IMG/VR virus record: IMGVR_UViG_3300030329_001104
Location: 1 to 45,426 of that record
From: a virus
Direction: 5' to 3' (one strand)
DNA length: 45,426 nt
Of this stretch, positions 6,251 through 35,375 are shown piece by piece; position 1 is the stretch's first letter; each line of letters opens with the position of its first letter. Position numbers and translations under genes: made by a program. The notes beneath the pieces were generated by a model. The model ran no database searches, was not told the DNA's origin, and saw only the letters and a list, made by a program, of their open reading frames with translations.

Positions 6251-6589
6251 TCACCAATCCCACCCAGTATGTGGTGCCACCTTTTGATTATCCGCTGCTA
6301 ACTTCACATCACGATCAGCTAACCATTCATCGAATGCTCTTTTTGTTTGGTCTGTGTCTTGGTAGAGTGCTTTGAGTTCTGTCCATTTATTACGAGCCAC
6401 GTGAGTGCCATAATAATAGTCGCCCTCGCCAAGCTTACAACGTGTGATTATTTGCCACATGCGTTGTTTAGTAATGTCGTACTCTTTGCCTAATTCTTCG
6501 AGAGTTACTTCTTGTGTTATCCATTTGTCGTACATACTCCTGTATTTAATGGAGTTTTCTTTAGCTTTTTGTTCTGATATACCTTTCAT
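6251..6589 (-). CDS. Helix-turn-helix protein, 112 residues
   Basis: ATG 6589 overlaps the DNA polymerase stop (ATGA) and has AAAGGA six bases upstream; a longer frame reaching 6613 is less likely. Around residues 24-50 the sequence TLEELGKEYDITKQRMWQII reads as a helix-turn-helix of the sigma region 4 or TrfB kind, with the tight turn at YDITKQ. The C-terminal half is polar with several Trp. It could be a phage transcriptional regulator acting on the promoter family seen around it, which is inference only. Confidence 0.7.
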   Translation of the reverse strand: MKGISEQKAKENSIKYRSMYDKWITQEVTLEELGKEYDITKQRMWQIITRCKLGEGDYYYGTHVARNKWTELKALYQDTDQTKRAFDEWLADRDVKLAADNQKVAPHTGWDW

Positions 6590-8448
6590 TTTATTTCCTT
6601 TGTTTCGCCCCACGACTTACCTAGTTCTTGGTCCACTAATAGGGGAACTGCAAGCTCTACACAGTTCTCCATTATTCTTGCTACTGTGTTGGCTTGTTCA
6701 GTGTTCTCTATCGAAATATCTACTTCATCGTGAACTTGTAAGTGAGGAACTATTCCTTCCTCCCATAGGTCTAGCATAGCTAACTTTGTCATGTCAGCCG
6801 CAGAGCCTTGTATTAAACGATTTAATGCTTTGTAAGTGTATGCCCGTTTAAGGTCATCACCGTATTTTTCTCTTGCCTCCTCTAAGGGTAGAGGAGGAGT
6901 TCTTTCATAACGACTCTCCCATAAATCAAAACGGCATCGCCTGCCTGCAAAAGTTCTTATATATCCACGATCTATCGCTACTCTGGCACATTGATCTTGT
7001 AGAGCACGGATAAACGGAACCTTAGCGTGATACTTTTGAAACAGTTTTTCTGCGTCCAGATCATCTAGTCCGAGTTCTTTAATAAGTTTTTCCTTACCCA
7101 TTCCGTAGCTAAGTCCTAGATTAATCGTTTTAGCCTGTTTACGAGGGATATTAGCCATGTCTGCTACTATCTGGTGGAAGTCTGCCCCGTGTTGCCTATA
7201 CTCCTCTACGGCTTCCTTAGCCCCCGTTAAATGCATTTGGTTAGCGTAGTGTACGGTTAGTCTAGGCTCTTGTTGAGAGTAATCGAATACACCCCATTGA
7301 CACCCTTCCTCAGGAATGAATAGAGAGCGAATTAAATTACCTATCTCTGGATCTCTTGCAGGCACCTGTTGTAGATTAGGGTTGCTATAACTAAACCTAC
7401 CACTAACTGTGCCTCCACGATCGTTACGCATAGGATGTGCTTCCGCATGTATTCTCCCATTAAAAGAGTGTTCCATGATCATCTTATCAATAAATGTAGT
7501 CCTTGCCTTATTTAATTTCCTTGCCCTAACTATAAGTTGAGGCAATTCATGTTCATGAGACTCTAACCAATTCTTTTGGAAACTAGCCATACCTTTAGGA
7601 GTTCTAGGGTACCAAAGATCGTTTTTATCAAAAATATTTTGTAGAGAGGCATTTGCCCAAAGATTAACTTCAGCTCCGTACTTGCGTTTAATCTCTACTT
7701 GTATTTTTTGTTCTTCTTTTGATAGTTGCTCACTAACCTGTTCTGCTTTGTTTTCATCGACTCTCACCCCCCTCCATCTCATCTCAATAAGTAAAGGGAT
7801 TAACCTAGATTCCATTGTGAGTATTTTGTCTAGGTTTTGTTCCTGGATTTCGATTTTTAATTTATTCCAAAGTTTTAAAGTAAGTGCTGCATCCTGCTCG
7901 CCGTAAGGTCCAACATATTTTGCGGGTAGTTTATACATCTCTGACTTAGGGTTGATTCCGTAAGCAAGTGCTGCATCTTGTAATAATGATTCATCTTTTT
8001 GTTCATCACAATAGGCGCTTCCTAAATTGTCTAAAGAATAAGAGAATCTGTTTTCATCAATTAAAGGTGCGGCAATAATCGTGTCTTGTATTGTACCTTT
8101 TACATCGATTCCTTCCCTCCGTAACCATCCCACATCATAGAGTGCGTTATGAAAAATAACTTCTCGAGTGTTAGAAGAAAGTAAAGTCTTCAACCAACGT
8201 AAAACAATAGTCTCGTCTAAATTCCCTCCGCCTTCGTGCCGAATAGGAAAATAACCAGACCAGTTTTTAGTTGCTACGCCTACTCCTACAACATGTCCTC
8301 GACCTGTAGCCCATCCTGGACCACACGTCGTTAGATAAGGATCATAAGTTTCTAAATCTATAGCCACTGTTTCATTCTCAGGAAACTGAGGAAAAACATC
8401 GGGCACAGACCACGAACTTTCTGGAGTAAACATAGGTTTTTGAAACAT
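6586..8448 (-). CDS. polA: DNA polymerase, family A, with 3'-5' exonuclease domain
   Basis: 620 residues, without a 5'-nuclease domain, as usual for phage PolA. Exonuclease domain: DLE at 31-33 (Asp31, Glu33), HNALYD ending at Asp105, and YGEQD with Tyr182 and Asp186. Polymerase domain: motif A FDYSQQEPRLTVHYA with Asp389, motif B (O-helix) RKQAKTINLGLSYG at 436-449, and motif C VHDEVD with His573, Asp574, Glu575. All catalytic residues are present. The position equal to E. coli Phe762 is Leu444. The start overlaps the upstream stop (TAATG). It is the replicative polymerase of this phage and sits with nucleotide-metabolism genes. Confidence 0.97.
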   Translation of the reverse strand: MFQKPMFTPESSWSVPDVFPQFPENETVAIDLETYDPYLTTCGPGWATGRGHVVGVGVATKNWSGYFPIRHEGGGNLDETIVLRWLKTLLSSNTREVIFHNALYDVGWLRREGIDVKGTIQDTIIAAPLIDENRFSYSLDNLGSAYCDEQKDESLLQDAALAYGINPKSEMYKLPAKYVGPYGEQDAALTLKLWNKLKIEIQEQNLDKILTMESRLIPLLIEMRWRGVRVDENKAEQVSEQLSKEEQKIQVEIKRKYGAEVNLWANASLQNIFDKNDLWYPRTPKGMASFQKNWLESHEHELPQLIVRARKLNKARTTFIDKMIMEHSFNGRIHAEAHPMRNDRGGTVSGRFSYSNPNLQQVPARDPEIGNLIRSLFIPEEGCQWGVFDYSQQEPRLTVHYANQMHLTGAKEAVEEYRQHGADFHQIVADMANIPRKQAKTINLGLSYGMGKEKLIKELGLDDLDAEKLFQKYHAKVPFIRALQDQCARVAIDRGYIRTFAGRRCRFDLWESRYERTPPLPLEEAREKYGDDLKRAYTYKALNRLIQGSAADMTKLAMLDLWEEGIVPHLQVHDEVDISIENTEQANTVARIMENCVELAVPLLVDQELGKSWGETKEIK

Positions 8449-8762
8449 TATTTCTTTTTAACTCTCGTAACCTTAGTTTTCTTTTGCTTTGGTTTTTTGG
8501 ATTTTGCTTTAGGAGCTTTGCCGCCTACCCATGCTTCGTTCACGTCTGGAGTAGATTTATCATCTGCTACATACGTTCCTTTCTTAGTTCTAGCACGTTT
8601 TGGCTTAGCCTTAATAACAGGAGCGGTTTCAAACTTATCTAGTTCTACCTCTCCTGATTTTATAGCTTCCTCAATAATTTCCTCGTTCTTTTGTTTTTTA
8701 ACAGGTTTATCGTTGGCTACTGCCCACTTAAAGAACCCTGTAACTTTTTTCCATAAAGACAT
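8448..8762 (-). CDS. Lys-rich low-complexity protein, 104 residues
   Basis: The N-terminus MSLWKKVTGFFKWAVAND is an amphipathic helix; the rest is low complexity and strongly basic, ending KSKKPKQKKTKVTRVKKK. There is no folded domain to recognise. Basic tails like this commonly bind DNA or RNA. It lies directly ahead of the polymerase gene and is coupled to it, so a role at the replication site is possible but unproven. Confidence 0.65.
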   Translation of the reverse strand: MSLWKKVTGFFKWAVANDKPVKKQKNEEIIEEAIKSGEVELDKFETAPVIKAKPKRARTKKGTYVADDKSTPDVNEAWVGGKAPKAKSKKPKQKKTKVTRVKKK

Positions 8763-8764
8763 AA

Positions 8765-9121
8765 TTATATAACCTCCTCTCTGTTGTCTTCCACAGAATA
8801 ATCAACGTCGTCAACTGTTTCAGCAGAACCAGTTACTGTATTTGCTAATATTTCGTTCTCTACCAGAAGTAAATATCTGCGTAGATCTCTTATATCATCA
8901 AGTAGACCTGCCTCGCCAATGTAGACTTCGCCCGCTTCAAAGATATCCCAACCATGCTTTTCAGACTGGTGTTCAATTCTATCGAACTTACGTGCCAACA
9001 TCATAAAAGCACCGACGCCACCACGACGTTTCCAAGAGTCGCCATACGAGGTCTCAGCTTTTTGTAAAGCGTGTAGATCGTTTTGGGCAACCTCTTTCAT
9101 TGTTTCCCATTTATTGCTCAT
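8765..9121 (-). CDS. Phage YGDSWKRRGG-type protein, possibly nucleotide-modification associated
   Basis: 118 residues, mostly helical. The block SYGDSWKRRGGVGAFMMLAR (residues 25-44) and IRDLRRYLLLVENEIL belong to a family often found near phage nucleotide metabolism and DNA modification genes; it resembles DUF1599 (nucleotide modification associated domain 1), which is a tentative assignment. It overlaps the thymidylate-synthase-like gene by 11 bases, with AAAGGAGA before the ATG. The context supports a role with modified nucleotides. Confidence 0.65.
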   Translation of the reverse strand: MSNKWETMKEVAQNDLHALQKAETSYGDSWKRRGGVGAFMMLARKFDRIEHQSEKHGWDIFEAGEVYIGEAGLLDDIRDLRRYLLLVENEILANTVTGSAETVDDVDYSVEDNREEVI

Positions 9122-10163
9122 GAGTTTCTCCTTTTTCCGCGTTATTTAAAGTGTACGAAGTGTCTCGTTTGCGGATCCAGTCGAAACACGCCGTCATCCA
9201 ATCAAGCGCTTTTATTTTACTAACGGCTTGATATGAATCCATATAATTCCTTTGTTTGTGTTTAGTATAAGCAACCGTCATCGGTACCGCAATATCTTTA
9301 AACACAGGGTTCTCCCAAGTTGTATCGATTTGTATATCGTTGGGGTGATAATTAAAATACCTATATAATTCCCAGTGGAAAGTGTCTATATTAGTTATTA
9401 ATGGGAAAGGCTTATATCCGTCTATAAGCAGGTCGTAGGGGTTCTTTTTATAGCTAAAGGTATAGGGATCTATCTCTAACACCTTTAAACGCTCCCAGAC
9501 GTCGTTTAAATAGACGTGAAAGCTATCGCTAATCTGCCTATAGGTACCTATTTCTACGCCTATTGCTGTAGCTAAATACTCCTGTAAAACTGACATATGA
9601 ACCACGTTAGCTCCATAGGCTCCCCAAACCATATCGTTAGAGCGACAACATACAGTCATGTTTAATTTGCCCTCTCGTATTTTGAAATAAATATTAGTAT
9701 TACAAGGCACGTCTTTGCCGACCTTATTTAGATCCAAAACAGGATCCCACATTTGCAACACGCATCTCCTGTCTTCAGGATTTGTTTTTAACATCTGTAT
9801 AATAATATCGAGTTGGTCTTTATTAAAATAACTTTTCCAACGCCAACCGTAAGCTCCCCATAAAGTCTCCCCATCGTCTGAGAAGTCTTCCATGCTTTTA
9901 ACAAAATAGGTTAAGGGAGGTAGTTTATTACTGCCCTGCAACATCCATAGACTTTCTATGAGGTGAAAGAAAGGGTTAGCGTCTCTTTCTTTCAATAAAC
10001 ACACCCTCTCAAAAGGTTTGTTATAAACAGTGGTTACGGGTTCCAACGCCTCGTAAGTTGTGCCGTTTCTGCTCTCTTGTTCTCTAAAATTTGAAGAGTC
10101 TTGAAATAAATCAATGCCTAATAACAAGGCATCGTTTACATTTCTAGCATTTATAACTTTCAT
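9111..10163 (-). CDS. Thymidylate synthase-fold enzyme, possible dUMP hydroxymethylase
   Basis: 350 residues, longer than bacterial ThyA (about 264). The core aligns with ThyA: DRRCVLQMWDP, catalytic Cys154 in DVPCNT, the phosphate-binding Arg-Ser at 174-175, the nucleotide-recognition Asn186 in GANVVHMS, and ISDSFHVY. The Asn fits a uracil rather than cytosine substrate. The His usually after the catalytic Cys is Asn155, and the WGAYG context after RSND differs from LGLPFN of housekeeping ThyA. It may make dTMP or 5-hydroxymethyl-dUMP. The neighbouring thymine pyrophosphorylase homologue favours the second, but sequence alone cannot decide. Confidence 0.85.
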   Translation of the reverse strand: MKVINARNVNDALLLGIDLFQDSSNFREQESRNGTTYEALEPVTTVYNKPFERVCLLKERDANPFFHLIESLWMLQGSNKLPPLTYFVKSMEDFSDDGETLWGAYGWRWKSYFNKDQLDIIIQMLKTNPEDRRCVLQMWDPVLDLNKVGKDVPCNTNIYFKIREGKLNMTVCCRSNDMVWGAYGANVVHMSVLQEYLATAIGVEIGTYRQISDSFHVYLNDVWERLKVLEIDPYTFSYKKNPYDLLIDGYKPFPLITNIDTFHWELYRYFNYHPNDIQIDTTWENPVFKDIAVPMTVAYTKHKQRNYMDSYQAVSKIKALDWMTACFDWIRKRDTSYTLNNAEKGETHEQ

Positions 10164-10402
10164 AAAGTGTCCTGATACGCACCTACTAATTCATAGACCA
10201 TAGACTGTATATCTTCTTGGCTCAGTTGTGGAAGTTTCCTTTTTATAAAAGCAACCGCCATTTGTTCATTTGCTGCCACCTTTAAAAAGAAAGCCACTTC
10301 TAAAAACTGAGTGTAATAAATATCTATCAAATCTCCATGTTCTTCTAATAAAGAAACAATTCTTTCTTGCTCCTCTAGCGCTAGTTGGTTCATCTTGCCC
10401 AT
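10160..10402 (-). CDS. Small helical protein between base-modification genes, 80 residues
   Basis: Start ATG 10402 has AAGGAG seven bases upstream and overlaps the upstream gene by 13 bases; the stop overlaps the next start (ATGA). The product is all-helical in appearance (LALEEQERIVSLLEEHGDL, later EDIQSMVYELVGAYQDTL). No family recognised. Tight coupling on both sides suggests a partner subunit of one of its neighbours. Confidence 0.7.
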   Translation of the reverse strand: MGKMNQLALEEQERIVSLLEEHGDLIDIYYTQFLEVAFFLKVAANEQMAVAFIKRKLPQLSQEDIQSMVYELVGAYQDTL

Positions 10403-11316
10403 TTGCTTACTCCTTCTTCTAAATCTTCAACCAATGGAAGATCAGTATGTTTATAAATAGACCTTGTTCTTCCTTCTTTTTTATAAATACGTGAATATTT
10501 ATCAAATTCACAAAGTCCCCCTTCTACTTCTCTCATCTCAAATTTGCTATGAGGTATGAGAGAGCCGTTTAATCTTTCTTCTGTTGCTATTTTCCATAGC
10601 TTCTGCATTTCCTCGTTCCAGTTATGAGTTTTCTTAGAAAAACCTAAGTCTCTCCTTGTTAAACGATTAAGTCCTCGCATGGCTCCTGGACCTGCATTTG
10701 CCCAAGTAAGTATGTCTTTAGCGTCTTCTAATAAATAGGTGTGTCTTAGGTCGGTTACGACTTCATAAGACATAAAAGGACCCATGTAAGGATAATCTTT
10801 TAAAAGACTCCAAGTATGTTCTAAAGAAGCATTACCTTCTTCTCGTCTAGTTTCTAGTACATCGATTAAATACTGCCTATCTTTCCACATGTGGGAGACA
10901 CACTCAGCGACTCCTGTTACCTTATCCATTCGATTAGGTGTTTTAATGATGTAGGAACCAGTTACCCATTTATCCTGTTTAATTATTTCTTCTATAGCCT
11001 TCTTTCTATCCCATTCTAAATGCAGGTTATGTTTAAGTAATGTTCTTCCTGTTTCTATGTAGTTAAACCATCTAAATATGACAGTAGCCATTAAAACTTC
11101 ATGGCTATCTCTTAACGGTTCTCGTATATGCGTTTTAAACCAACGAGTAGTTCTATCATCTTCTCGAAACACTTGACAAAATTTAAACTCTTGAAGTATT
11201 GGGTCCTCTGTCCAAGGGGATTCTTCTTCAAGTTCCTCTTTTAGAACACGAATGTTCTCCCGTTCATGGAGCCAATAAAAGTATCGGTCTAATTCTTCTT
11301 CGTAGAACTCAGTCAT
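10390..11316 (-). CDS. Alpha-glutamyl/putrescinyl thymine pyrophosphorylase-like protein
   Basis: 308 residues. It carries hallmark blocks of the aGPT-pyrophosphorylase superfamily (clade 2/3 type): FKFCQVFREDDRTTRWF at residues 45-60, VIFRWFNYIETGRTLL, a GPFMSYEVVTDL block near residue 180, and a final TWANAGPGAMRGLNRL. In phages this family was linked by comparative genomics to hypermodified thymines such as alpha-putrescinyl- or alpha-glutamyl-thymine, made from 5-hydroxymethyl-uracil through a pyrophosphate intermediate. It is in an overlapping run with the ThyA-like enzyme and a methyltransferase. The hydroxymethyluracil DNA kinase expected in such a pathway is not in this window. Confidence 0.8.
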   Translation of the reverse strand: MTEFYEEELDRYFYWLHERENIRVLKEELEEESPWTEDPILQEFKFCQVFREDDRTTRWFKTHIREPLRDSHEVLMATVIFRWFNYIETGRTLLKHNLHLEWDRKKAIEEIIKQDKWVTGSYIIKTPNRMDKVTGVAECVSHMWKDRQYLIDVLETRREEGNASLEHTWSLLKDYPYMGPFMSYEVVTDLRHTYLLEDAKDILTWANAGPGAMRGLNRLTRRDLGFSKKTHNWNEEMQKLWKIATEERLNGSLIPHSKFEMREVEGGLCEFDKYSRIYKKEGRTRSIYKHTDLPLVEDLEEGVSKWAR

Positions 11317-12170
11317 TACTTCTTAATTAATCTCCATGCGCAGTTGTTAGCGTATTCTGGAAAAAATACTGCTGCCGCCATTCTAAAAAACTGTCTGCCA
11401 TACCTTTCCTGTAACATAAGTAACTGTTCAGTGGTCCAAACAGGACTACCACCAGAGTGTTCCAAGTTTTTCATAGCTTTCTTTAAATTAGGCAGTTGTA
11501 TAAACGTTCCTGTTACTGACTCTATGTGGAAGTTTCTTTCTAGTTCTTCTTTAAGCTCTTGAAAGCCCCACTCATACACATGGTCTTCTGGTAGTTTATC
11601 GTTTGACCCGTCGTGGTTAGGGGTGGAGACATACCCTATAGCGTTGGGTCGCATAACCCTAGCTACATCATCTAACCACGCAGGTACAAACTCTCGACCC
11701 ATGTGTTCGATAACTTCAGTAGACCAGAAAAAGTCTATACTTTCGTCCTCTAAATCAAACACAGGATTAACTGTTAAATCTTGTATTCTTATTTCACCAT
11801 TAAAATTCTTAAACCATGTTGCATCTTTTAATGGTTCTCCTCCTGTAGACCAGAAGGGATTTTCTAATTCACACGCAGGATCTATATCATATCCATAATA
11901 CGAACGGATAATATCCGACTTCTTGACCACATACGCCTTATATAAATTTCTAAGTGCCCAACACTCTCCGCAACCAACTTCTAAAGTATCGAGAGGTCTA
12001 CCTAAGACTTTCGCTTCTGTTATGCACATAGAAGAAATCTTATCGAAACGGCTCATGTGAGCGAGTTCGTCAGGTCTCCAATTTCCTAACACCCCTGCCG
12101 AAGCAAGATCCATTCTAGTATTTTTACTGTCGTTTTCGTTGACAGTTAATTTTTTTCTTATAGATGACAT
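11316..12170 (-). CDS. Class I SAM-dependent methyltransferase
   Basis: 284 residues with a Rossmann methyltransferase core: motif I LDTLEVGCGECWAL near residue 60, an acidic end of strand 2 (YYGYDIDPACE), and motif IV-like FFWSTEVIEHMGREFVP followed by ARVMRPNAIGYVSTPNHDG. There is no NPPY or PC motif, so it is not a standard adenine or cytosine DNA methylase. A small-molecule, tail-sugar or modified-base substrate fits better. It is the first gene behind promoter P6 and leads into the thymine-modification run. Confidence 0.8.
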   Translation of the reverse strand: MSSIRKKLTVNENDSKNTRMDLASAGVLGNWRPDELAHMSRFDKISSMCITEAKVLGRPLDTLEVGCGECWALRNLYKAYVVKKSDIIRSYYGYDIDPACELENPFWSTGGEPLKDATWFKNFNGEIRIQDLTVNPVFDLEDESIDFFWSTEVIEHMGREFVPAWLDDVARVMRPNAIGYVSTPNHDGSNDKLPEDHVYEWGFQELKEELERNFHIESVTGTFIQLPNLKKAMKNLEHSGGSPVWTTEQLLMLQERYGRQFFRMAAAVFFPEYANNCAWRLIKK

Positions 12171-12240: not shown

Positions 12241-13737
12241 TTACATCTGATAGCAGCGCGTTGTTTTGGGCTCTATTAGATATAAGTTTTTCTTAGTTCG
12301 CGTTACACCTACATAGAAAACTCTGTTTTCATCATCAGGGTTTTCTTGATAGTTTTTATAAACTCTTGTTGTTATATCGGTCAGCAACACTACGTTGGTT
12401 GCTTCCCCTCCTTTAGCGGCATGTATAGTGGATAGCCGTATTCTAGGTTGCTTAGTGATTTTTTCTCCTCGTCTAAGCATGGCTCGTATGTAGCTAAGTT
12501 CTTTAGGACTTAATAATGTAAAAACATCGTACCAGTGTCCGTCGGGTAAATCAGGAAACTGGTTCTTTAAATCTTGATACTGTAGTGTTATATCATTATC
12601 TAATAGATCGAGTTGTTTAGAGTTTTCTACCTTAATGTATTTGATAATATTAACACACTCATTTAAAGGTATTGCTTGTCCTTTTCGTAGTCTTTCCCAG
12701 TAAATCACAGCCCTCACCTTACTTTCTGGAATACTTGGTCTGCCTTTCACCTCAAAAAACCACCCCTCATTTCTACAATATTCGTCTACGCCCTCTAACA
12801 AATAATTAGTTCTTGCTAAAACTAACCACTCCCCGTGTTCCATGTTAACTAATTCTATGTTCGGCTCCCACCTAACCATGCCCTCCTCCTTTCTAGGGTT
12901 CCACTCTTTGTATATCCTGGACCTTACTTGTCCAATACATTGTTTGGCTACCTTGTGAACAGAAGAAGGTACACGGTAGGACTGCTTTAAGACAAGAGCA
13001 TTTTTAGAATTATTTATTAAATAATCTACATCGGCTCCTGCCCATTTATAAATGGCTTGGTCATCATCCCCCGCCACATAAATACGATCAGCTTTCTCTG
13101 CTAACTTACGCACAACCTTCCACTGTAATGGAGAAAGATCTTGAGCTTCATCAACAAACATAACATCTAATTTAGGCACGTCGCCTTTTTCAATAAACAT
13201 CTCAAGCATATCCGTATAATCAACTAGCAATCTATCTTCTTTAAATAACTTTAACCCTCTAGCATAACGTTCTAATTCAAACCAACCGACAGCGTCTTCT
13301 ACTTCGTGCCATTGATCTTCTAAAGGAACATTTCTCATACGGGCAAGGTTTTCTATAAAAGCCAAACGATCATCATGCGTCATGCCAAAGATATGCCCTT
13401 CGTCTGAGGTAGTTCTACCTGTTAACCTTAAATTAAGTTTCTCATTTAGATCGGTTATGTCTGATCTACTTATTACGCTTTCCCTCGTGAGACCTAATTG
13501 TCTAAACGCTAAAGAATGTAGAGTTCTAAAGAAAGGTAGGTCTTTGTTGGAGATATTAAACTTACGCATAGCTCTTTCTTTTCCCTCATTAACTGCCTTT
13601 TTAGTGAAGGTAAAAAATCCAATTCTATCAGGTTCTGTACCTTTTTCTAATTCATCTTCGATTAAACCAAGTAAGGTACTGGTTTTTCCAGTTCCAGGAG
13701 GTCCAAGAATAACTTGTGTGTGAATAGGAAGCGTCAT
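12241..13737 (-). CDS. UvrD/PcrA-like superfamily 1 DNA helicase
   Basis: 498 residues, shorter than cellular UvrD (about 720). Motifs in order: Walker A GPPGTGKT (12-19), Ia FFTFTKKAVNEG, II VDEAQD (DEAQD 196-200), III GDDDQAIYKWAGA, IV LKQSYRVP, V LSTIHAAKGGEATNVVL, and VI FYVGVTRTKKNLYL. All motifs needed for ATP hydrolysis and 3'-5' translocation are present, so it is likely active. It is coupled to the AlkB-like gene by a 4-base overlap. It may act as the replicative or recombination helicase, as no DnaB-type helicase is visible. Confidence 0.93.
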   Translation of the reverse strand: MTLPIHTQVILGPPGTGKTSTLLGLIEDELEKGTEPDRIGFFTFTKKAVNEGKERAMRKFNISNKDLPFFRTLHSLAFRQLGLTRESVISRSDITDLNEKLNLRLTGRTTSDEGHIFGMTHDDRLAFIENLARMRNVPLEDQWHEVEDAVGWFELERYARGLKLFKEDRLLVDYTDMLEMFIEKGDVPKLDVMFVDEAQDLSPLQWKVVRKLAEKADRIYVAGDDDQAIYKWAGADVDYLINNSKNALVLKQSYRVPSSVHKVAKQCIGQVRSRIYKEWNPRKEEGMVRWEPNIELVNMEHGEWLVLARTNYLLEGVDEYCRNEGWFFEVKGRPSIPESKVRAVIYWERLRKGQAIPLNECVNIIKYIKVENSKQLDLLDNDITLQYQDLKNQFPDLPDGHWYDVFTLLSPKELSYIRAMLRRGEKITKQPRIRLSTIHAAKGGEATNVVLLTDITTRVYKNYQENPDDENRVFYVGVTRTKKNLYLIEPKTTRCYQM

Positions 13738-14318
13738 AGTCCCGTTCTAAATGTCAAATTAATTCTCTGTCCTGTATTCTCCATCGCAGGGATTGAGTGG
13801 GTGCTGTTCATTTGTGAATGACCATCAAATATATAAACGTCTCCATGTTCTATCATGTAGTCTGTTTGATTCATGCAATCGTCCATTCCCTGTGTGTCTA
13901 TCTCGCTTGTATTACTTTCTTTTTTAATATCTTTATCGAACTGTCGCCACTGTAATATTCTAGCTGAGCCAAAAGAAACACCGACTACTAAATCATTTAA
14001 GGTGGGAACTGTATCAGAGTGGTGGGGTATACTAGAATCACCGCCCTCGTATAAACCACACAAACAAAAATTAAATCGTACAACTCTTTCAAGTTCTTTG
14101 GAGACCAGTAGTTCTGTCGCCATTTTTATGAGTTTCATTTCTTGTGTCCAAGCTTCGGGCTCATATTTTTTACCTGCATAATCAAAGGTTGCCGTGCCAT
14201 AACCTTTAGTGGGTCTTCCTTGTACTTCTCTACCGTCGAATACTCGGATAGTCGGTTCGTCCCAATCGGTTATCTCCACGTTATACTCTTTCAGAGCACC
14301 TTTTATAATTTTCATCAT
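13734..14318 (-). CDS. AlkB-like 2OG-Fe(II) dioxygenase
   Basis: Start taken at the tandem ATG 14318/14315, which overlaps the upstream stop; this gives 194 residues. The iron ligands are His100 and Asp102 (HHSD) and His174 (STHSIP). The 2-oxoglutarate end carries RINLTFR (185-191), which fits the AlkB hallmark RxNxTxR. An aromatic-rich substrate loop precedes it. AlkB proteins remove alkyl groups from nucleic acid bases by oxidation. In this DNA module, repair of phage DNA is the simple reading; action on a modified base is also possible. Confidence 0.88.
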   Translation of the reverse strand: MMKIIKGALKEYNVEITDWDEPTIRVFDGREVQGRPTKGYGTATFDYAGKKYEPEAWTQEMKLIKMATELLVSKELERVVRFNFCLCGLYEGGDSSIPHHSDTVPTLNDLVVGVSFGSARILQWRQFDKDIKKESNTSEIDTQGMDDCMNQTDYMIEHGDVYIFDGHSQMNSTHSIPAMENTGQRINLTFRTGL

Positions 14319-14602
14319 TTGTTTTTTGCTTGTTCCTCTAGCCAAGCATGAATTCCCTTGTCCCAAACCTCTTTAGTTACTCTCACTCCGTTAAAACGAT
14401 AAATCATTCCTTCGTCAGCCATGTTTTGAGTAACGTCTTTAAAGTTCCCTACGTCCTTATCCAGAAGATCGTAAATCAGTTGTTGTACTAACTCTTTAAG
14501 TTCGTTACGCGTTAGTAGTTGTTTAGAGTGTTTATTGTGATAAATATTACTTAAATGATTTCTTTCATCATCGTTTAACTCTATAGATACATTGGTTTTC
14601 AT
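14315..14602 (-). CDS. Hypothetical protein, possibly ribbon-helix-helix, 95 residues
   Basis: The first 45 residues (KTNVSIELNDDERNHLSNI, then a helix ending LLTRNELKELVQQLIYDLL) have the strand-helix-helix pattern of a ribbon-helix-helix DNA-binding domain. The C-terminal part contains DEGMIYRFNGVRVTKE and ends in Lys-rich residues. Overlaps the primase stop by 4 bases and the AlkB start by 4, so it is made with both. Domain call is tentative. Confidence 0.6.
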   Translation of the reverse strand: MKTNVSIELNDDERNHLSNIYHNKHSKQLLTRNELKELVQQLIYDLLDKDVGNFKDVTQNMADEGMIYRFNGVRVTKEVWDKGIHAWLEEQAKNK

Positions 14603-29600: not shown

Positions 29601-29794
29601 TAGAAACGGCTCCTTGTTTTTATTCTTTTTCCGTTAGCCGTGTATATATAGAAGTCTGAACGACTTCCTTTCTTGCCTGCGTAAGCTTTTTTATCAACTC
29701 CAACCATGTCTCTCCTGCGTATTTTAACGTTTTGCGGGTTAAAGCCCTTCCCGTAAGCTGCAGCACAAGGTCTGGTCCCTTGATTATATATCAA
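29600..29794 (-). CDS. Small basic protein, start uncertain
   Basis: 64 residues from TTG 29794, which overlaps the cyclase stop, or 35 residues from ATG 29707, which has AGGAG close by. The longer frame looks coding (PCAAAYGKGFNPQNVKIRRR). Both versions end SDFYIYTANGKRIKTRSRF and are strongly basic. No family recognised. It is the last gene of the curli-cyclase block or the first of the next virion block. Confidence 0.55.
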   Translation of the reverse strand: MIYNQGTRPCAAAYGKGFNPQNVKIRRRDMVGVDKKAYAGKKGSRSDFYIYTANGKRIKTRSRF

Positions 29795-31581
29795 AAAGTG
29801 AAAATTTTTAAAGGTTTTTCTTTACCTTTTACTTGTATCGGGGAAAGTGGTTTTAAAGTATATCCACAAAAAAGTTCGGTTTGTTCACCAATTAAAACAG
29901 AAACTCCCGCTTCTTTAGTTCCTGATTCAAGTCTTGCAGCGGTATTTACTGCATCTCCAATAGCTGTATAATCAAATCTTGATGAGGAACCCATATTACC
30001 TATTACTGCTTCTCCTGTGTTTATTCCTATCCCTATTGCTATACTTGGTAAACTTTTACTTTCTAATTCTTTATTAAGTTCTTCCATATTCTTTATAATA
30101 TCTTTAGCGCAATCTACCGCTATTTTTGGGTGATTTAACAAGTCTAATGGAGCATTAAATATAGCCATCATTGCATCTCCAATGTACTTATCCACCATAC
30201 CACCGTGTTTTTGCACGGCTTCTTGTTGTGCGGTAAGGGCTTTGTTCATAATAAACGTAACTTCTTGAGGGTCCAATGCTTCAGACATGGCGGTGAAGCC
30301 TCGCACGTCTGTAAATAAGAAGGTAGCTTCTTTCTTTTCTCCTCCTAATTTTAGAAGATCAGGGTTCTTTTGTAGTTCTTTTACCTGTCTGGGGTCTAAA
30401 TAATGCTCAAATTGCTTCTTAATCTGTTGTCTTAGCTTATACTGTTCTCTAAATCTAAGGTAAAAAGCCGTAGTTCCTGTAATAAATTGGCTAATTAATG
30501 CCCAAGTAACGTCTATTAAAACCCCAGAACCTATCGTATAGACGCCGTAAGACGCCGTAAGCGCCAGTATAAGCCCCGCAGAGGTTACCCCTAGAGTTAT
30601 CCCAAAAAGGTTAATAAACGCCCATATAAGCGCTACAGAGGCTAAAAATATACCCAGTTCTAAGGCTAACGCATAATCAGGTATTTTGGGACTATCCTGG
30701 ATTAAAATAGACTCGGCTAATGCTGCCTGAATCTTATGTGGCTCAAGCAATCCAGCAGGAGTGGCAACCTGAGGCATAATGCCTTTAGCGGTGATACCCA
30801 CAAATACAAATCTTCCTTCAATATCAGGAGCTTCGTTATACAGCTCATTTAATGTAAATTCAGGAGTATCTACCCAACTAATCCATTTTCTACCTAATGA
30901 ATCCGTAGGAACAGGAGGAATACCACGAACACGAACTTCTTCTACTCCGTTGGGATTGGTTTTAATTACATAAGTGTCTGCGTTAGCTAAAACTTTTAAC
31001 ACTTCTGTACCATACGCGGAAACCCAACCGTCAGGTGTTCTCATTAATAACGGCATTCTTCTAACTAATTGATCAACATCTGTAGGAGCAATAGCTATTC
31101 CTTGTGTTGCATTGTTTTTAAGAAGATCTATATTTTCTATAACCCCCTGAGCCTTAAATCCTCCTACGTCATCCCCCATAACAACAGTTCCTGTTGTGGG
31201 AGGGTATTCTCCGTTATCGTTTTCAAACATAGCTAGAACACTAGGCGCGTACGACAAGACTTGGGCAAATTCAGCATCTCCTCCAAATCTATCTGGTTGT
31301 GGAAAGGCTATAACCCAACCCACACCTAGTGCTCCACTATTTAAAAGTTCTAAATGTATTTCAGCTAATCTTTGTCTTGGTAAAGGATAGCCGCCTTCTC
31401 TTGCTATATCTTCTTCGTTTATAGAAAGAATAGAAAAATAATTAGAAGGTTGTTGTTCCGCAACAAAAGAATCAAATACTTTAAGCTTAATAATTTCTAA
31501 AGGAGTCCACTGTTGCACTAGCGGTACTGCTAATAAAACAAGCAAACAAAGAAGTTGGAAAAACCTAATCACCTTGATCAA
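29791..31581 (-). CDS. CHASE2-domain class III adenylate cyclase
   Basis: 596 residues. Residues 7-24 are a membrane anchor, 26-300 an extracytoplasmic CHASE2 sensor, followed by the three membrane helices usual for CHASE2 (about 305-325, 328-350, 356-376), a coiled linker, and a cyclase domain from 415. Catalytic residues: metal-binding Asp425 (FTDVRGFT) and Asp469 (YIGDAMMAIF), ATP-selecting Lys465 and Thr539 (DYTAIGD), and transition-state Asn546 and Arg550 (NTAAR). All are intact, so cAMP synthesis is predicted. The frame has no ATG; TTG 31581 or GTG 31572 are the options, inside the curlin gene's 3' end, implying coupling. Highly unusual in a phage. Confidence 0.92.
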   Translation of the reverse strand: MIKVIRFFQLLCLLVLLAVPLVQQWTPLEIIKLKVFDSFVAEQQPSNYFSILSINEEDIAREGGYPLPRQRLAEIHLELLNSGALGVGWVIAFPQPDRFGGDAEFAQVLSYAPSVLAMFENDNGEYPPTTGTVVMGDDVGGFKAQGVIENIDLLKNNATQGIAIAPTDVDQLVRRMPLLMRTPDGWVSAYGTEVLKVLANADTYVIKTNPNGVEEVRVRGIPPVPTDSLGRKWISWVDTPEFTLNELYNEAPDIEGRFVFVGITAKGIMPQVATPAGLLEPHKIQAALAESILIQDSPKIPDYALALELGIFLASVALIWAFINLFGITLGVTSAGLILALTASYGVYTIGSGVLIDVTWALISQFITGTTAFYLRFREQYKLRQQIKKQFEHYLDPRQVKELQKNPDLLKLGGEKKEATFLFTDVRGFTAMSEALDPQEVTFIMNKALTAQQEAVQKHGGMVDKYIGDAMMAIFNAPLDLLNHPKIAVDCAKDIIKNMEELNKELESKSLPSIAIGIGINTGEAVIGNMGSSSRFDYTAIGDAVNTAARLESGTKEAGVSVLIGEQTELFCGYTLKPLSPIQVKGKEKPLKIFTF

Positions 31582-32278
31582 TGGTTATGGTTTTATTGCA
31601 ATTAGTCGTGCAATTATAATTAACGGTGATGCTCTTATTGGTGCTTCCTGATTGACTAGCCGTTACGTTATAGTCATCAGTATAAAAATTTAACCTCATA
31701 TAGTGATCTCCGCTCCCTGTTTGCGTTATCGTTGCTTCGTTATTGTCCGCTGAATTACTAGCATATATCTTTGCGTAATGCTCTCCCGAACCTGACTGAG
31801 TAATACTAAATTCCGAACTATCTCCAAAAGCCCTTATTTCTCCTTCCTTATCGTCGCCTGTTTGCGTAATAGTGTACACATTATTGTCCCCCTGCATATA
31901 AATCTCAGCGTCATTATTATTACCATTTTGAATTATATCCATGTCGTTACCATCATCGTCCGCGTCTATATAGCCAAAATTATCGTTGCCGTCTTGGTCT
32001 ATTTTGTATTTATTGCCTGTGTGATTTGCTACTTGGCTATAGGCTCTAGCGGTGTTGCTTGTACCTTCTTGATCTATATCTATTTCAGCGTTACTACAGT
32101 TATGGGTAGTGTAAGTGCCTTGCGATAAACCACACCACACCCTAGCAGTATTGCCTGTTCCTATTTGATCAATATGAATAAGAGAAGAACTCCCTTTTGT
32201 TCTAATCTCTGTGGAGTTGTCTCCCGCATACGCAAGAACAGAAATAAAACTAATCAGACTGATTGATAATAATTTCAT
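31565..32278 (-). CDS. Secreted curlin-repeat protein (second)
   Basis: 237 residues from ATG 32278, which follows GGAGGTGAAA. Signal peptide MKLLSISLISFISVLAYAG. The mature part is built of curlin-like units with the QxGxxN pattern: IHIDQIGTGNTARV, IDIDQEGTSNTARA, YKIDQDGNDN, YTITQTGDDK, FSITQSGSGEHYAK, ATITQTGSGDHYMR, KTITIDQGD. Four cysteines sit in pairs (VWCG...NCSN and NCTTNC), unlike standard CsgA. It should be exported and form beta-solenoid amyloid. It overlaps FecR upstream by 29 bases and the cyclase downstream by 17. Confidence 0.85.
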   Translation of the reverse strand: MKLLSISLISFISVLAYAGDNSTEIRTKGSSSLIHIDQIGTGNTARVWCGLSQGTYTTHNCSNAEIDIDQEGTSNTARAYSQVANHTGNKYKIDQDGNDNFGYIDADDDGNDMDIIQNGNNNDAEIYMQGDNNVYTITQTGDDKEGEIRAFGDSSEFSITQSGSGEHYAKIYASNSADNNEATITQTGSGDHYMRLNFYTDDYNVTASQSGSTNKSITVNYNCTTNCNKTITIDQGD

Positions 32279-33353
32279 TTTCACCTCCTCCATTTATCAT
32301 AACGTTTATTAATCTTCCAGCAGATAATATCTGTATATTATACCCTGCTCCTTTGTCTAATTCTAAATCTATAGTGTTTTCAACTTGTCTAACTAAAGTA
32401 AAAATCTCACCTTCGACAAACGTATAAACTTGAGCGTTTGGATCAAATCTAGGAATAATGCCCTCTATTCGTACTCCGTCTATTTCTCCTTCAGCTCCCT
32501 CATCTCTGCCTCCCGCAGATACTTCTTCTAAAATTTCTAATAAGTCTTGTAAAAAATCAACAGAAAGTAAGTCTATATCTAATCGGGTTATTTCTTCTTG
32601 TAGTTCATCTTTAGAAAGATCACTGTCATCGTCTAAATCATTTTCTTCTAAAAAATCAACGTCTAAAACATTACTTGAAACTTGGCTTTGTTCATCTATG
32701 GCGACTTTTACTTCTTCGGGAGGGTTCACTATTAATAAATTATCTATAAAATTTAAAGTAAGATTATTTATAACTACGGGCTTAGTGGGAGGGGCTTCAG
32801 AAACACTAACCATTGTTGCTTGGTACGGTTGATTAAGTATCTCTATGCCTGCCATTGTTTCTACCGTAATTTCTCCTGAAGAAGTTCCATCAGCTTGAGG
32901 CAATAGAATCACAAGAGAACGACCTAATTCATCTACAGTTGTGGTGAAATCAGTGCCACGAATAGCAATCGTAGCACTCGGAGTACGAATAGAAATGTTT
33001 TCTTTATCTATTCTTCCAAGCGCTCCAGTAATAAAACGGGCGGTTCCGCTTGCCATTTGAAGCGCCATTTTGCTTTTGCTTGGATCAGGATCATAGATAT
33101 ATTCATCGATAACAATTTTAGAATGTTCAGTAAGGCGAATAACAGATGAGTCAAGAAACTCAATACCAATACGACCATTCCCAGTACGCACGTCATCATA
33201 GCTAAGAATATCCAAATTAGCCGTTGCCAGTAATTTATCTGACTGATTTCCGCGAAGAACTTCTCCATTTCCCCTTAACTCAGAGATCTTCCCTATCTCA
33301 GAATAAATATTATTAAACGGTATTAATACTAATATTAACAGCCACTTGTGCAT
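32250..33353 (-). CDS. Secreted FecR-domain protein
   Basis: 367 residues. Signal peptide at residues 1-18 (MHKWLLILVLIPFNNIYS). Residues 22-150 form a FecR-type domain: GEVLRGNQ, DDVRTGNGRIGIEF, SVIRLTEHSKIVIDEY, ALQMASGTARFITG, then ISIRTPSATIAIRGTDF. An acidic helical linker follows (DVDFLEENDLDDDSDLSKDE), then a C-terminal beta part ending NGGGENEIIINQSD, which itself looks like half a curlin repeat. FecR-domain proteins and CHASE2 cyclases often occur together in bacteria. It may sense envelope or curlin state and pass it to the cyclase; this is inference. Confidence 0.88.
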   Translation of the reverse strand: MHKWLLILVLIPFNNIYSEIGKISELRGNGEVLRGNQSDKLLATANLDILSYDDVRTGNGRIGIEFLDSSVIRLTEHSKIVIDEYIYDPDPSKSKMALQMASGTARFITGALGRIDKENISIRTPSATIAIRGTDFTTTVDELGRSLVILLPQADGTSSGEITVETMAGIEILNQPYQATMVSVSEAPPTKPVVINNLTLNFIDNLLIVNPPEEVKVAIDEQSQVSSNVLDVDFLEENDLDDDSDLSKDELQEEITRLDIDLLSVDFLQDLLEILEEVSAGGRDEGAEGEIDGVRIEGIIPRFDPNAQVYTFVEGEIFTLVRQVENTIDLELDKGAGYNIQILSAGRLINVMINGGGENEIIINQSD

Positions 33354-34024
33354 TGGTCTACGTCGATAGTACCGTTGCTAGTTGTAGCGGTTATAACAAC
33401 CACACCCGAAGTGCTACCAGTGCTATTTGTCTGGTCTATGTCTACATCATTAGTGTTTCCTGTAAGTTCCACCGTAATTGAATGATCAGCGTTTCCTGTT
33501 TGAGTTGTATCAATATCATTAGAATCACCATCAATGTCCCAATTATTAATGCACCCAACCACTTCACAAGTTGCATTCAAGTTATTAGAGGTACCTGCAA
33601 TAACTATGTCTTGATTACCTGCTGTTGCTGTAGCTGCAGCACCTTGAGTAAACGAAACTACGTTTGAATCTCCTGTTGCCGCATAATCAAAATCAGTATT
33701 AGCAACGTCTCCTGTTGCACCAAAAGCTAACGTCGTTTGGTTACTATCTCCTGTATGTGTGGTTGTAAATGAAGTGCTATTACCTTGAGCCACCGAGGCA
33801 GCCATTGTATTGCTATCTCCTATTTGATCTATATCAACAGTCATAGAAGTCCCTGTAAAGGTCGCTCTAGTTTGAGACGTACCTACTACGTTTGTGTCTC
33901 CTATTTGGTCAACATTCATAGTTAGTCCTGTTCCAGACTGAGTAATATAAATATCATTGTTTCCTGCAAAGAGTATTGGGGTAAACAATAACCCCAAGAA
34001 AGCTAATTTACAAAGTTTTTTCAT
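33335..34024 (-). CDS. Secreted curlin-repeat protein (first)
   Basis: 229 residues with signal peptide MKKLCKLAFLGLLFTPILFAG and RBS AGGAGG. Repeat units include IYITQSGTGLTMNVDQIGDT, VDIDQIGDSNTMAA, HTGDSNQTTLAF, ATGDSNVVSFTQ, WDIDGDSNDIDTTQTGN and NTNDVDIDQTN, all in the alternating beta and QxGxxN style of curlin. Cysteine pairs occur at TCEVVGC and at the extreme C-terminus (QCTSGC). It directly follows CsgG with a 4-base overlap, so it is a likely secretion substrate of that pore. Confidence 0.85.
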   Translation of the reverse strand: MKKLCKLAFLGLLFTPILFAGNNDIYITQSGTGLTMNVDQIGDTNVVGTSQTRATFTGTSMTVDIDQIGDSNTMAASVAQGNSTSFTTTHTGDSNQTTLAFGATGDVANTDFDYAATGDSNVVSFTQGAAATATAGNQDIVIAGTSNNLNATCEVVGCINNWDIDGDSNDIDTTQTGNADHSITVELTGNTNDVDIDQTNSTGSTSGVVVITATTSNGTIDVDQCTSGC

Positions 34025-34869
34025 TTTTCCTCCTGACTTGGCTCAAGTTTGGAATAGTCAAAATCCCATAATTCTTTCTCCAAGCCTTTTATAATTAAAG
34101 TATAAACTGCTTCTTCAATCGCTGCTCGAGTTGCGTAACCTACTGCTTCATTTTCAGTATACCCAGTCTCAAGTTCAACAAGTTCGGTGCCCATTTCTAT
34201 AAAACGAAACACGTCTCTACTTATCCCTGCGCTCAAAACAGTTTTACTTACCGTACAGTTTACCATAACTTCACCTGTTTGTACTAATATAGCACGCAAA
34301 GAAACAGTTATCTCATCTCTACGGTATTGCCCACTAGACCCAATCCCTAAGTATCTAGCTCCATTTCCCCCTGTTTCTATATTGGTATCATATTGCACTA
34401 TGCCACCTTCTATAAGAATTCCTGCAAAAAGAAGGGGCTTTAACGTATTCCCACTCTCTCCGTTATAGGTTTGTCTTGTTTGTTTTATAAGTTGTCTTTC
34501 TCTTGTTAATGCGTCTAAGCCTTTTCTTTCTACAACCACGAACCAATTACCGTTTCCTGCGCTTCTTAATGCGTCTATTAGATAATTATCTGCTCCTTGA
34601 GTAACTGCTGTACTAAATAAAGCCATCTTCTGTGAACTTTTACGCTGACCTGTTAAGTCTTGGAAATTATAGATAGCTACAACAGCTTTTTGATTAGGGT
34701 ATGGAAGATTAACTAATTTTTCGTGAGTGGGTCTTACTATCTTTGCCTTTTCTATACACTCTATGAAACTTGCGCACCCTGTATCGTTTATATCAGGAGC
34801 AAAACTTGCACAACCTTGAAACAAAGGAAGTAAGAGAACAGCTACTATATGCCACAGTCTTCTGAACAT
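34021..34869 (-). CDS. csgG: CsgG-like curli secretion lipoprotein
   Basis: 282 residues, about the length of E. coli CsgG (277). Signal and lipobox LLPLFQGC with lipidated Cys20. The body has CsgG family blocks: NQKAVVAIYNFQDLTGQRK, FSTAVTQGADNYLIDAL, WFVVVERKGLDALTRERQLI, ILIEGGIVQYDTN, GARYLGIG and VSLRAILVQTGEVM. CsgG makes a nonameric outer-membrane pore that exports curlin subunits. The gene lies between CsgF and the first curlin gene, as expected for a working system. A role of the pore in virion release is also imaginable. Confidence 0.92.
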   Translation of the reverse strand: MFRRLWHIVAVLLLPLFQGCASFAPDINDTGCASFIECIEKAKIVRPTHEKLVNLPYPNQKAVVAIYNFQDLTGQRKSSQKMALFSTAVTQGADNYLIDALRSAGNGNWFVVVERKGLDALTRERQLIKQTRQTYNGESGNTLKPLLFAGILIEGGIVQYDTNIETGGNGARYLGIGSSGQYRRDEITVSLRAILVQTGEVMVNCTVSKTVLSAGISRDVFRFIEMGTELVELETGYTENEAVGYATRAAIEEAVYTLIIKGLEKELWDFDYSKLEPSQEEK

Positions 34870-35375
34870 ATTCCAAATATCCCCACTGGGATAATTATAG
34901 TAGTAACATTGCCATCAGCGTCTGTTACTGTTAACGTAATATTAATTCCATCGTTTACAAAAGTTATGGTGCTTCCCTCTAACTCTATACTGCCCCCCGT
35001 TCCTCCTTTTTCAGAATCAAATAAACTCTCAGCAATATCTCTTGATAATTGACTATAGATTCTACTTTCTAAATTTCTTAAAAATTTAGCTAGTGTGGTG
35101 TTTTCTGCTTCTCTTTCTGCTTCTTTTAGTGCGTCTTCAACTTTTTGAGCTTCTTCATCTCGCCTAGTTTTTTCTTGTTCGTCAATAGTTAAGTAATGTG
35201 AAGACGTTGCCACCCCATTAAAAGAAGGGCTTTTAAATTCATGAACTATTTCATCAGCAGGTAGAATTCCTACATAAAAGAACAACATTAAATAAAATAT
35301 TGTACATAAAGCAATAGACGAGAAAAAAAGTCCTAGACTTCCTTCATTCTTTTCTGTTCTTTTGTTCTTGCTCAT
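34845..35375 (-). CDS. csgF: CsgF-like curli assembly protein
   Basis: 176 residues. Residues 13-40 form a signal or anchor (FFSSIALCTIFYLMLFFYVG). The mature part aligns in order with CsgF: EFKSPSFNG (the RNPNFGG block that enters the CsgG pore), an added charged helix, LRNLESRIYSQLSRDIAESL (the FTQAIQSQILGGLL helix), then ITFVNDGINITLTVTDADGN (the C-terminal beta part). Length exceeds E. coli CsgF (138) because of a longer N-terminus and an inserted helix. Overlaps CsgG by 25 bases. Confidence 0.83.
   Translation of the reverse strand: MSKNKRTEKNEGSLGLFFSSIALCTIFYLMLFFYVGILPADEIVHEFKSPSFNGVATSSHYLTIDEQEKTRRDEEAQKVEDALKEAEREAENTTLAKFLRNLESRIYSQLSRDIAESLFDSEKGGTGGSIELEGSTITFVNDGINITLTVTDADGNVTTIIIPVGIFGICSEDCGI

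Follow-up and report, generated by a model that had tools for sequence, protein, structure and literature searches.

In the bacteriophages M6, PaMx11 and ViI, hydroxymethyluracil (hmU) is phosphorylated, and amino-acid transfer follows. The M6/YuA gene cluster for 5-NedU combines a dUMP hydroxymethylase and an all-helical protein of the family formerly called aGPT-Pplase1 with a P-loop 5-hydroxymethyl-deoxyuridine (5-hmdU) kinase, an amino acid:DNA transferase, a pyridoxal phosphate (PLP) enzyme, a radical S-adenosylmethionine (SAM) protein and Nmad5. Pelagiphages of the HTVC023P type carry a gene pair, thymidylate synthase (TS) and aG/PT-PPlase1, beside the family A DNA polymerase (PolA), and this pair has been interpreted as DNA hypermodification (Wittmers et al. 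2022; PMC9599517). Here we analyze a viral DNA of 45.4 kb and 38% G+C (IMG/VR record IMGVR_UViG_3300030329_001104, positions 1 to 45,426; hereafter the window), in which a five-gene cassette at positions 8765-12170 very probably puts hmU into phage DNA and in which a methyltransferase (MT) is the best candidate for the decorating enzyme. The gene pair in HTVC023P-type phages is thus already published, in a main text that mentions neither a methyltransferase nor missing kinase and transferase genes (PMC9599517); what is new here is that the absence of the kinase is not explained by the edge of the window and that a different, MT-based chemistry is proposed.

The five open reading frames (ORFs) of the cassette all lie on the minus strand, and their positions were confirmed. 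The first gene encodes MT, a class I SAM methyltransferase of 284 amino acids (11316..12170; Methyltransf_23, 5e-08), and is followed by genes for the all-helical protein HEL (308 residues, 10390..11316; PF18723, HMUDK_hel/aGPT-Pplase1), an 80-residue coupled protein (10160..10402), a predicted dUMP hydroxymethylase with ThyA fold (350 residues, 9111..10163; PF00303 at 6.5e-24, phrog_5131 at 3e-112) and a 118-residue YGDSW protein (8765..9121), with successive overlaps of 1, 13, 4 and 11 bp. Of 80 IMG/VR loci, nearly all keep this gene order, and all five genes are under purifying selection (dN 0.09-0.36, dS near-saturated); since dozens of contigs hold homologues of each gene, arranged alike and with this dN/dS pattern, the ORFs are not chance. 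The overlapping run reported in the initial annotation is therefore real, conserved in many marine viral contigs and, as judged from sequence evidence, supported as a thymine-modification cassette. A strong Shine-Dalgarno sequence (AAAGGAGA) precedes the MT start, but the promoter, P6, that had been placed ahead of the run was not recovered, as a scan for sigma-70-like sites returned none between the UvrD-like helicase gene and MT (10 sites in the scan versus 22.8 in shuffles).

To place the ThyA-fold protein, we built a tree that took in six true thymidylate synthases, the T4 dCMP hydroxymethylase and the SPO1 dUMP hydroxymethylase. The window protein clusters with SPO1 gp29 and the proteins of M6, PaMx11 and Pam3 (hydroxymethylase side, support 85/78), and the six true synthases form a separate clade (99/93). 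It retains Glu58, Tyr94, Cys146, Arg166, Asn177, His207 and Tyr209, lacks the TS residue Trp80 and has Asn in place of His147; positions 177 and 147 were found to be the most discriminating between modifying and normal ThyA-type enzymes in the MetaGPA study (PMC8670742). No NCBIfam TS cut-off is reached (97.1 versus 174.55 bits; 55.5 versus 108.35 bits). The SPO1-side placement, the residue pattern (no Trp80, Asn177, His147 to Asn) and the missed cut-offs together point to a hydroxymethylase, and its production of 5-hydroxymethyl-dUMP (hmdUMP) is strongly supported. The tree and the NCBIfam scores agree with the initial annotation in making it a uracil-type enzyme rather than a normal dTMP synthase.

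HEL passes the PF18723 cut-off by far (2e-41) and is 42% identical to PaMx11 gp50 and 36% identical to its M6 counterpart, so that its earlier assignment to the aGPT-Pplase family stands. The family is now named "5-hmdU DNA kinase, helical domain" (HMUDK_hel), and the pyrophosphorylase activity attached to HEL before is a superseded prediction. Two IMG/VR contigs of other samples (L006 and L007) encode a 100% identical HEL, the L006 contig, at 65,177 bp, being longer than the window.

The kinase expected from such pathways had been noted as missing, which left either a location outside the window or a different chemistry. Neither the 5-hmdU kinase (PF18748) nor a kinase-like Walker A ORF was found in the window, and neither PF18748 nor the amino acid:DNA transferase PF18724 was found in 33 longer relatives of 40-84 kb or, in the records searched, in further kinase-less HEL relatives. 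As controls, M6 and Sonora match both profiles and PaMx11 matches PF18724, its kinase scoring below the Pfam cut-off (17 bits). One relative, G019 (61,952 bp, locus L047), is bounded by an exact terminal repeat of 127 bp, which marks its genome as complete; other relatives share 48-98 bp near both ends, and no terminal repeat was found in the window contig. When all ORFs of G019 were scanned, our own profiles for kinase and transferase matched none, and a search for Walker A motifs gave no kinase-like gene. The 33 longer relatives and the terminally repeated G019 thus rule out a kinase that merely lies outside the window, and its absence from the relatives supports the second branch, that the chemistry differs. 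Few of the sampled loci hold tailoring enzymes of the M6/PaMx11 type (PLP, radical SAM, FAD), and in the layouts examined those that do are kinase-bearing. Unless an unrecognised kinase exists, the lack of kinase and transferase puts M6 chemistry out of reach for the window lineage, in which MT stands in the cassette instead. As a side observation, M6 gp54 (L002:8366-8929) matches PF18748, the 5-hmdU DNA kinase family (7.7e-18), although NC_007809 lists it as 'terminase small subunit'.

A survey of HEL homologues in phages, IMG/VR and bacterial genomes revealed which enzymes accompany the family. Within 6 kb of HEL, a kinase lies in 14 phage-type loci, and in none of these is a glycosyltransferase or any of the surveyed methyltransferases found; 242 loci lack a kinase but have MT (226), a glycosyltransferase, or an FkbM methyltransferase plus a glycosyltransferase, some with a radical SAM protein. 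Pfam confirmed TET-associated glycosyltransferases (TAGT; LuckyBarnes, L174), FkbM (L085, L257) and radical SAM/SPASM proteins (L183, L257) as partners; the GT4-type partner proteins match below the cut-off. On the HEL tree, kinase presence changed by at least four gains or losses. Locus L088, labelled kinase-bearing in the first HEL tree, has no kinase in its genome and was left out of the second.

Of 227 MT loci, 226 have HEL immediately downstream of MT, in most cases with an overlap, and related phages that lack the cassette also lack MT, which makes MT part of the cassette; its dN is 0.09-0.14. The AlphaFold2 model (pLDDT 83) has its closest folds in TleD, RebM and AtmM, natural-product small-molecule methyltransferases, and motif IV of DNA N4/N6- or C5-methyltransferases ([DNS]PP[YFW] or PC) occurs in 0 of 29 family members. 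A HEN1-like RNA 2'-O-methyltransferase, suggested by the MT motifs TEVIEHM and DHxYEW, was kept only as a lead, since HEN1 is in neither the PDB profile matches nor the 50 best fold matches.

Distant MT homologues are encoded by the Stenotrophomonas phage AXL3 (tblastn 4e-8), by PW916 and by an environmental podovirus. In these three, in 22 IMG/VR loci and in L445 and L447, MT stands beside a ThyA-fold hydroxymethylase of the cytosine type (Thr147, Asp177), usually with a deoxynucleoside monophosphate (dNMP) kinase and without HEL; the only loci without the hydroxymethylase are L444 and the truncated L466. Counted over the distant MT relatives in other phages, 25 of 27 loci show this pairing, compared with a ThyA-family match of any kind in 4,109 of 50,697 phage records. 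AXL3_28 (L448), annotated as thymidylate synthase, and L449 carry this dCMP-hydroxymethylase signature. Only two of 37 restriction enzymes, both with A/T-only sites, cut AXL3 DNA, which resisted the other 35, and a ThyX-type synthase is encoded in AXL3 by a gene of its own (PMC7504290); both would be expected if the ThyA-like protein produced hydroxymethyl-dCMP and the cytosines were decorated. AXL3 and PW916 thus resemble the window in pairing MT with a ThyA-fold hydroxymethylase and differ from it in base type, in having a dNMP kinase and a nucleoside triphosphate (NTP) pyrophosphohydrolase, and in lacking HEL. Judged from these neighborhoods, MT appears to follow hydroxymethylpyrimidines of both uracil and cytosine kinds, and the simplest reaction that both would share is O-methylation of the hydroxymethyl group. 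The SAM methyltransferase listed in the initial annotation is therefore present, but better seen as the likely decorating enzyme than as a bystander. Such pairing has a precedent: a carbamoyltransferase acting on 5-hydroxymethylcytosine (5hmC), likewise paired with a ThyA-fold hydroxymethylase, was predicted by co-occurrence and later proven (PMC8670742), although it adds carbamoyl to 5hmC whereas methyl on 5hmU is proposed here.

We consider it an even call that the window lineage converts dUMP to hmdUMP, builds hmU-DNA and has MT methylate the base, presented by HEL, to 5-methoxymethyluracil. In this scheme, the ThyA-fold enzyme would supply hmdUMP, host kinases would convert it to hmdUTP, which the phage PolA would build into DNA; MT would then methylate the exposed 5-hydroxymethyl oxygen to give 5-methoxymethyl-deoxyuridine, a step that would replace phosphorylation and amino-acid transfer. 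HEL, whose fold weakly resembles those of base-flipping HhH glycosylases and of the PaMx11 transferase, would serve as a base-presenting module for hmU-DNA, handing the base to a coupled enzyme and being reused with a kinase, a glycosyltransferase or methyltransferases across phages. The modification may shield phage DNA from host nucleases. A broader proposal, which we advance tentatively, is that this phage MT family O-methylates hydroxymethylpyrimidines, so that abundant ocean phages, which have HEL, would contain 5-methoxymethyluracil and AXL3-type phages 5-methoxymethylcytosine, and that HEL is a general hmU-DNA presenting module rather than a part of the kinase.

Several observations weigh against these proposals. 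The best PDB fold matches of the HEL model (pLDDT 95.6), HhH-GPD glycosylases and the PaMx11 gp46 PUGT glycinyltransferase (8z2n), are non-significant (E >= 0.74), and the HEL tree offers only three fully independent contrasts, which are suggestive and not significant (sign test, p 0.25). The 226 MT-HEL loci do not amount to 226 independent events, as a single viral lineage accounts for most of them and many repeat the same contig. Three Hyphomicrobium-type loci (L258, L259 and L261) have HEL, a ThyA-type hydroxymethylase and a duplicated 118-residue-type protein with no decorating enzyme close by. The window MT and the AXL3 branch share only ~25% identity, and L444 has MT but no ThyA homologue on its 26-kb contig. 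In L445, a PF18748-like, kinase-like gene (L445:2-1230) overlaps the MT homologue beside the cytosine-type hydroxymethylase, so that MT does not strictly exclude a kinase, and the locus warns that other chemistries exist. Finally, the fold class of MT also includes N- and C-methyltransferases (TleD), which makes O-methylation a guess from context.

Plain 5hmdU DNA as in SPO1, with HEL binding or protecting hmU-DNA and MT acting on RNA or a small molecule, is possible and in our view rather unlikely. SPO1-type phages need no further enzyme, the decorating activity is so far only predicted, the MT fold resembles small-molecule methyltransferases and the Hyphomicrobium-type loci get by with HEL, TS and the 118-residue protein; yet MT is translationally coupled to HEL, evolves under strong purifying selection and is gained and lost with the cassette, its distant relatives also stand beside hydroxymethylases, and HEL elsewhere mostly accompanies decorating enzymes. 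We hold with similar doubt that MT methylates hmdUMP or hmdUTP before replication, so that pre-made 5-methoxymethyl-dUTP is incorporated and HEL has a separate DNA role. The grouping of MT with an NTP pyrophosphohydrolase and a dNMP kinase, without HEL, in AXL3-type clusters fits such an order, as does the analogous 5hmC carbamoyltransferase, which accepts 5hmdCTP (PMC8670742), but the coupling of MT to HEL in the lineage of the window points to a step that the two share at the DNA level, and a dNMP kinase was not among the genes recognised in the window.

It is improbable that the lineage takes the usual route of M6 and PaMx11, its kinase and transferase being diverged or provided by the host, with hmU phosphorylated, aminoacylated and then N-methylated by MT. 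The HEL family is known from that pathway, a diverged kinase could escape detection, given that the PaMx11 kinase itself scores below the cut-off at 17 bits, and L445 has its kinase-like gene next to MT; against this, neither the window nor G019 has a kinase-like Walker A ORF, and PF18724, detected in the controls, is absent from every window relative tested. A normal thymidylate synthase, in a cassette that does no more than provide dTMP, is a highly improbable reading of the ThyA-fold protein, since the retained Asn177 and catalytic Cys and the many phages that carry TS are set against the absent Trp80, the change of His147 to Asn, the SPO1 gp29-side placement, the missed NCBIfam cut-offs and the HEL neighbor.

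Beyond the MT cassettes, kinase-less HEL loci are varied. In L085 and L175-L179, a cassette at the same UvrD-PolA site has an FkbM-type methyltransferase and a GT4-like glycosyltransferase in place of MT, with a sugar-plus-methyl decoration of hmU as one possible outcome. Brevibacterium phage LuckyBarnes (L089), in whose genome PF18748 and PF18724 were not found, and L174 resemble the window in that HEL stands beside a ThyA-type hydroxymethylase (which takes the place of TET); they differ in their partners, TET-associated glycosyltransferases (PF20691, two in LuckyBarnes), and are candidates for glycosylated hmU. SPASM radical SAM proteins occur in kinase-less HEL cassettes of L183, L184, L188 and L199, each with a glycosyltransferase, and of L255 and L257, the last of which also holds an acyl-carrier-like 97-residue protein; these are possibly further hmU chemistries. 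Chromosomal HEL homologues (L267-L334; at least 485 matches) come from bacteria of many phyla; a ThyA-like gene and proteins of ~116 and ~290 residues often accompany them, sometimes along with a P-loop protein, and they may be related to the 5hmdU-kinase/TS defence systems of PMC13092281.

The cassette sits between genes for a UvrD-like helicase on the left (12241..13737, minus strand; PF00580, 3e-29) and PolA on the right (6586..8448, minus strand; PF00476, 3e-63), in synteny with M6, PaMx11 and Pam3; M6 shares the order upstream of the polymerase, with a hydroxymethylase 44% identical to that of the window. PaMx11 and Pam3 both have kinase and transferase genes, unlike the window, and neither phage was found in the MT search. 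The UvrD-like helicase is nearest to those of the environmental podovirus ct3Et533, 023Pt_psg01 and DSL-LC04 (~39%). In 023Pt_psg01 and DSL-LC04, the helicase adjoins PolA or is separated from it by only two small genes, with no cassette and no MT, which marks the cassette as a discrete module at this site. An AlkB-like 2OG-Fe(II) oxygenase beside UvrD (13734-14366) was rejected as a thymine hydroxylase or cassette member because it is missing from many MT-HEL loci (L056, L061-L063, L161, L163-L172).

Among the small proteins, the 80-residue one has homologues in 57 of 85 loci, where it is under purifying selection, is replaced or absent in some relatives and matched no family in Pfam, PHROGs or NCBIfam. 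The 118-residue protein adjoins TS in MT, FkbM/glycosyltransferase and glycosyltransferase/radical SAM cassettes and tracks with the cassette. Its proposed link to nucleotide modification holds in part: it matches no Pfam Nmad family, but its Pam3 homologue (Pam3_54, 57.7% identity over 52 residues) is annotated 'nucleotide modification', and the window also has gp32-34-like genes in common with Pam3. M6 gp61 and PaMx11 gp53, whose position had suggested homology, gave a poor alignment (19-21%), and two of the aligned proteins match DUF3310. A Lys-rich 104-residue protein between the cassette and polA (8448..8762, minus strand) has homologues in 66 of 85 loci and no family match, and its membership in the cassette is uncertain.

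Megablast of the window DNA against known phages gave no match. Positions 29791-35375 encode a curli type VIII secretion module (CsgF, CsgG, two curlin-repeat proteins and FecR) and a CHASE2 adenylate/guanylate cyclase. A type VIII secretion module with curli, FecR and adenylate cyclase is known from HTVC023P-type pelagiphages, where TS and aG/PT-PPlase1 were noted as partner genes (PMC9599517), and by this resemblance the host of the window phage may be Pelagibacter.

No methoxymethyl bases in phages were found described in the literature searched. If the proposal is true, a methyl-capped hydroxymethylpyrimidine would be added to the known DNA bases, and the occurrence of aGPT-Pplase1 without its name-giving kinase in a common marine phage lineage would be explained. 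The role of PF18723 would shift from a part of the kinase to an interchangeable adaptor, and the unexplained restriction resistance of AXL3 would gain a concrete candidate, which makes the idea testable in a cultured phage.

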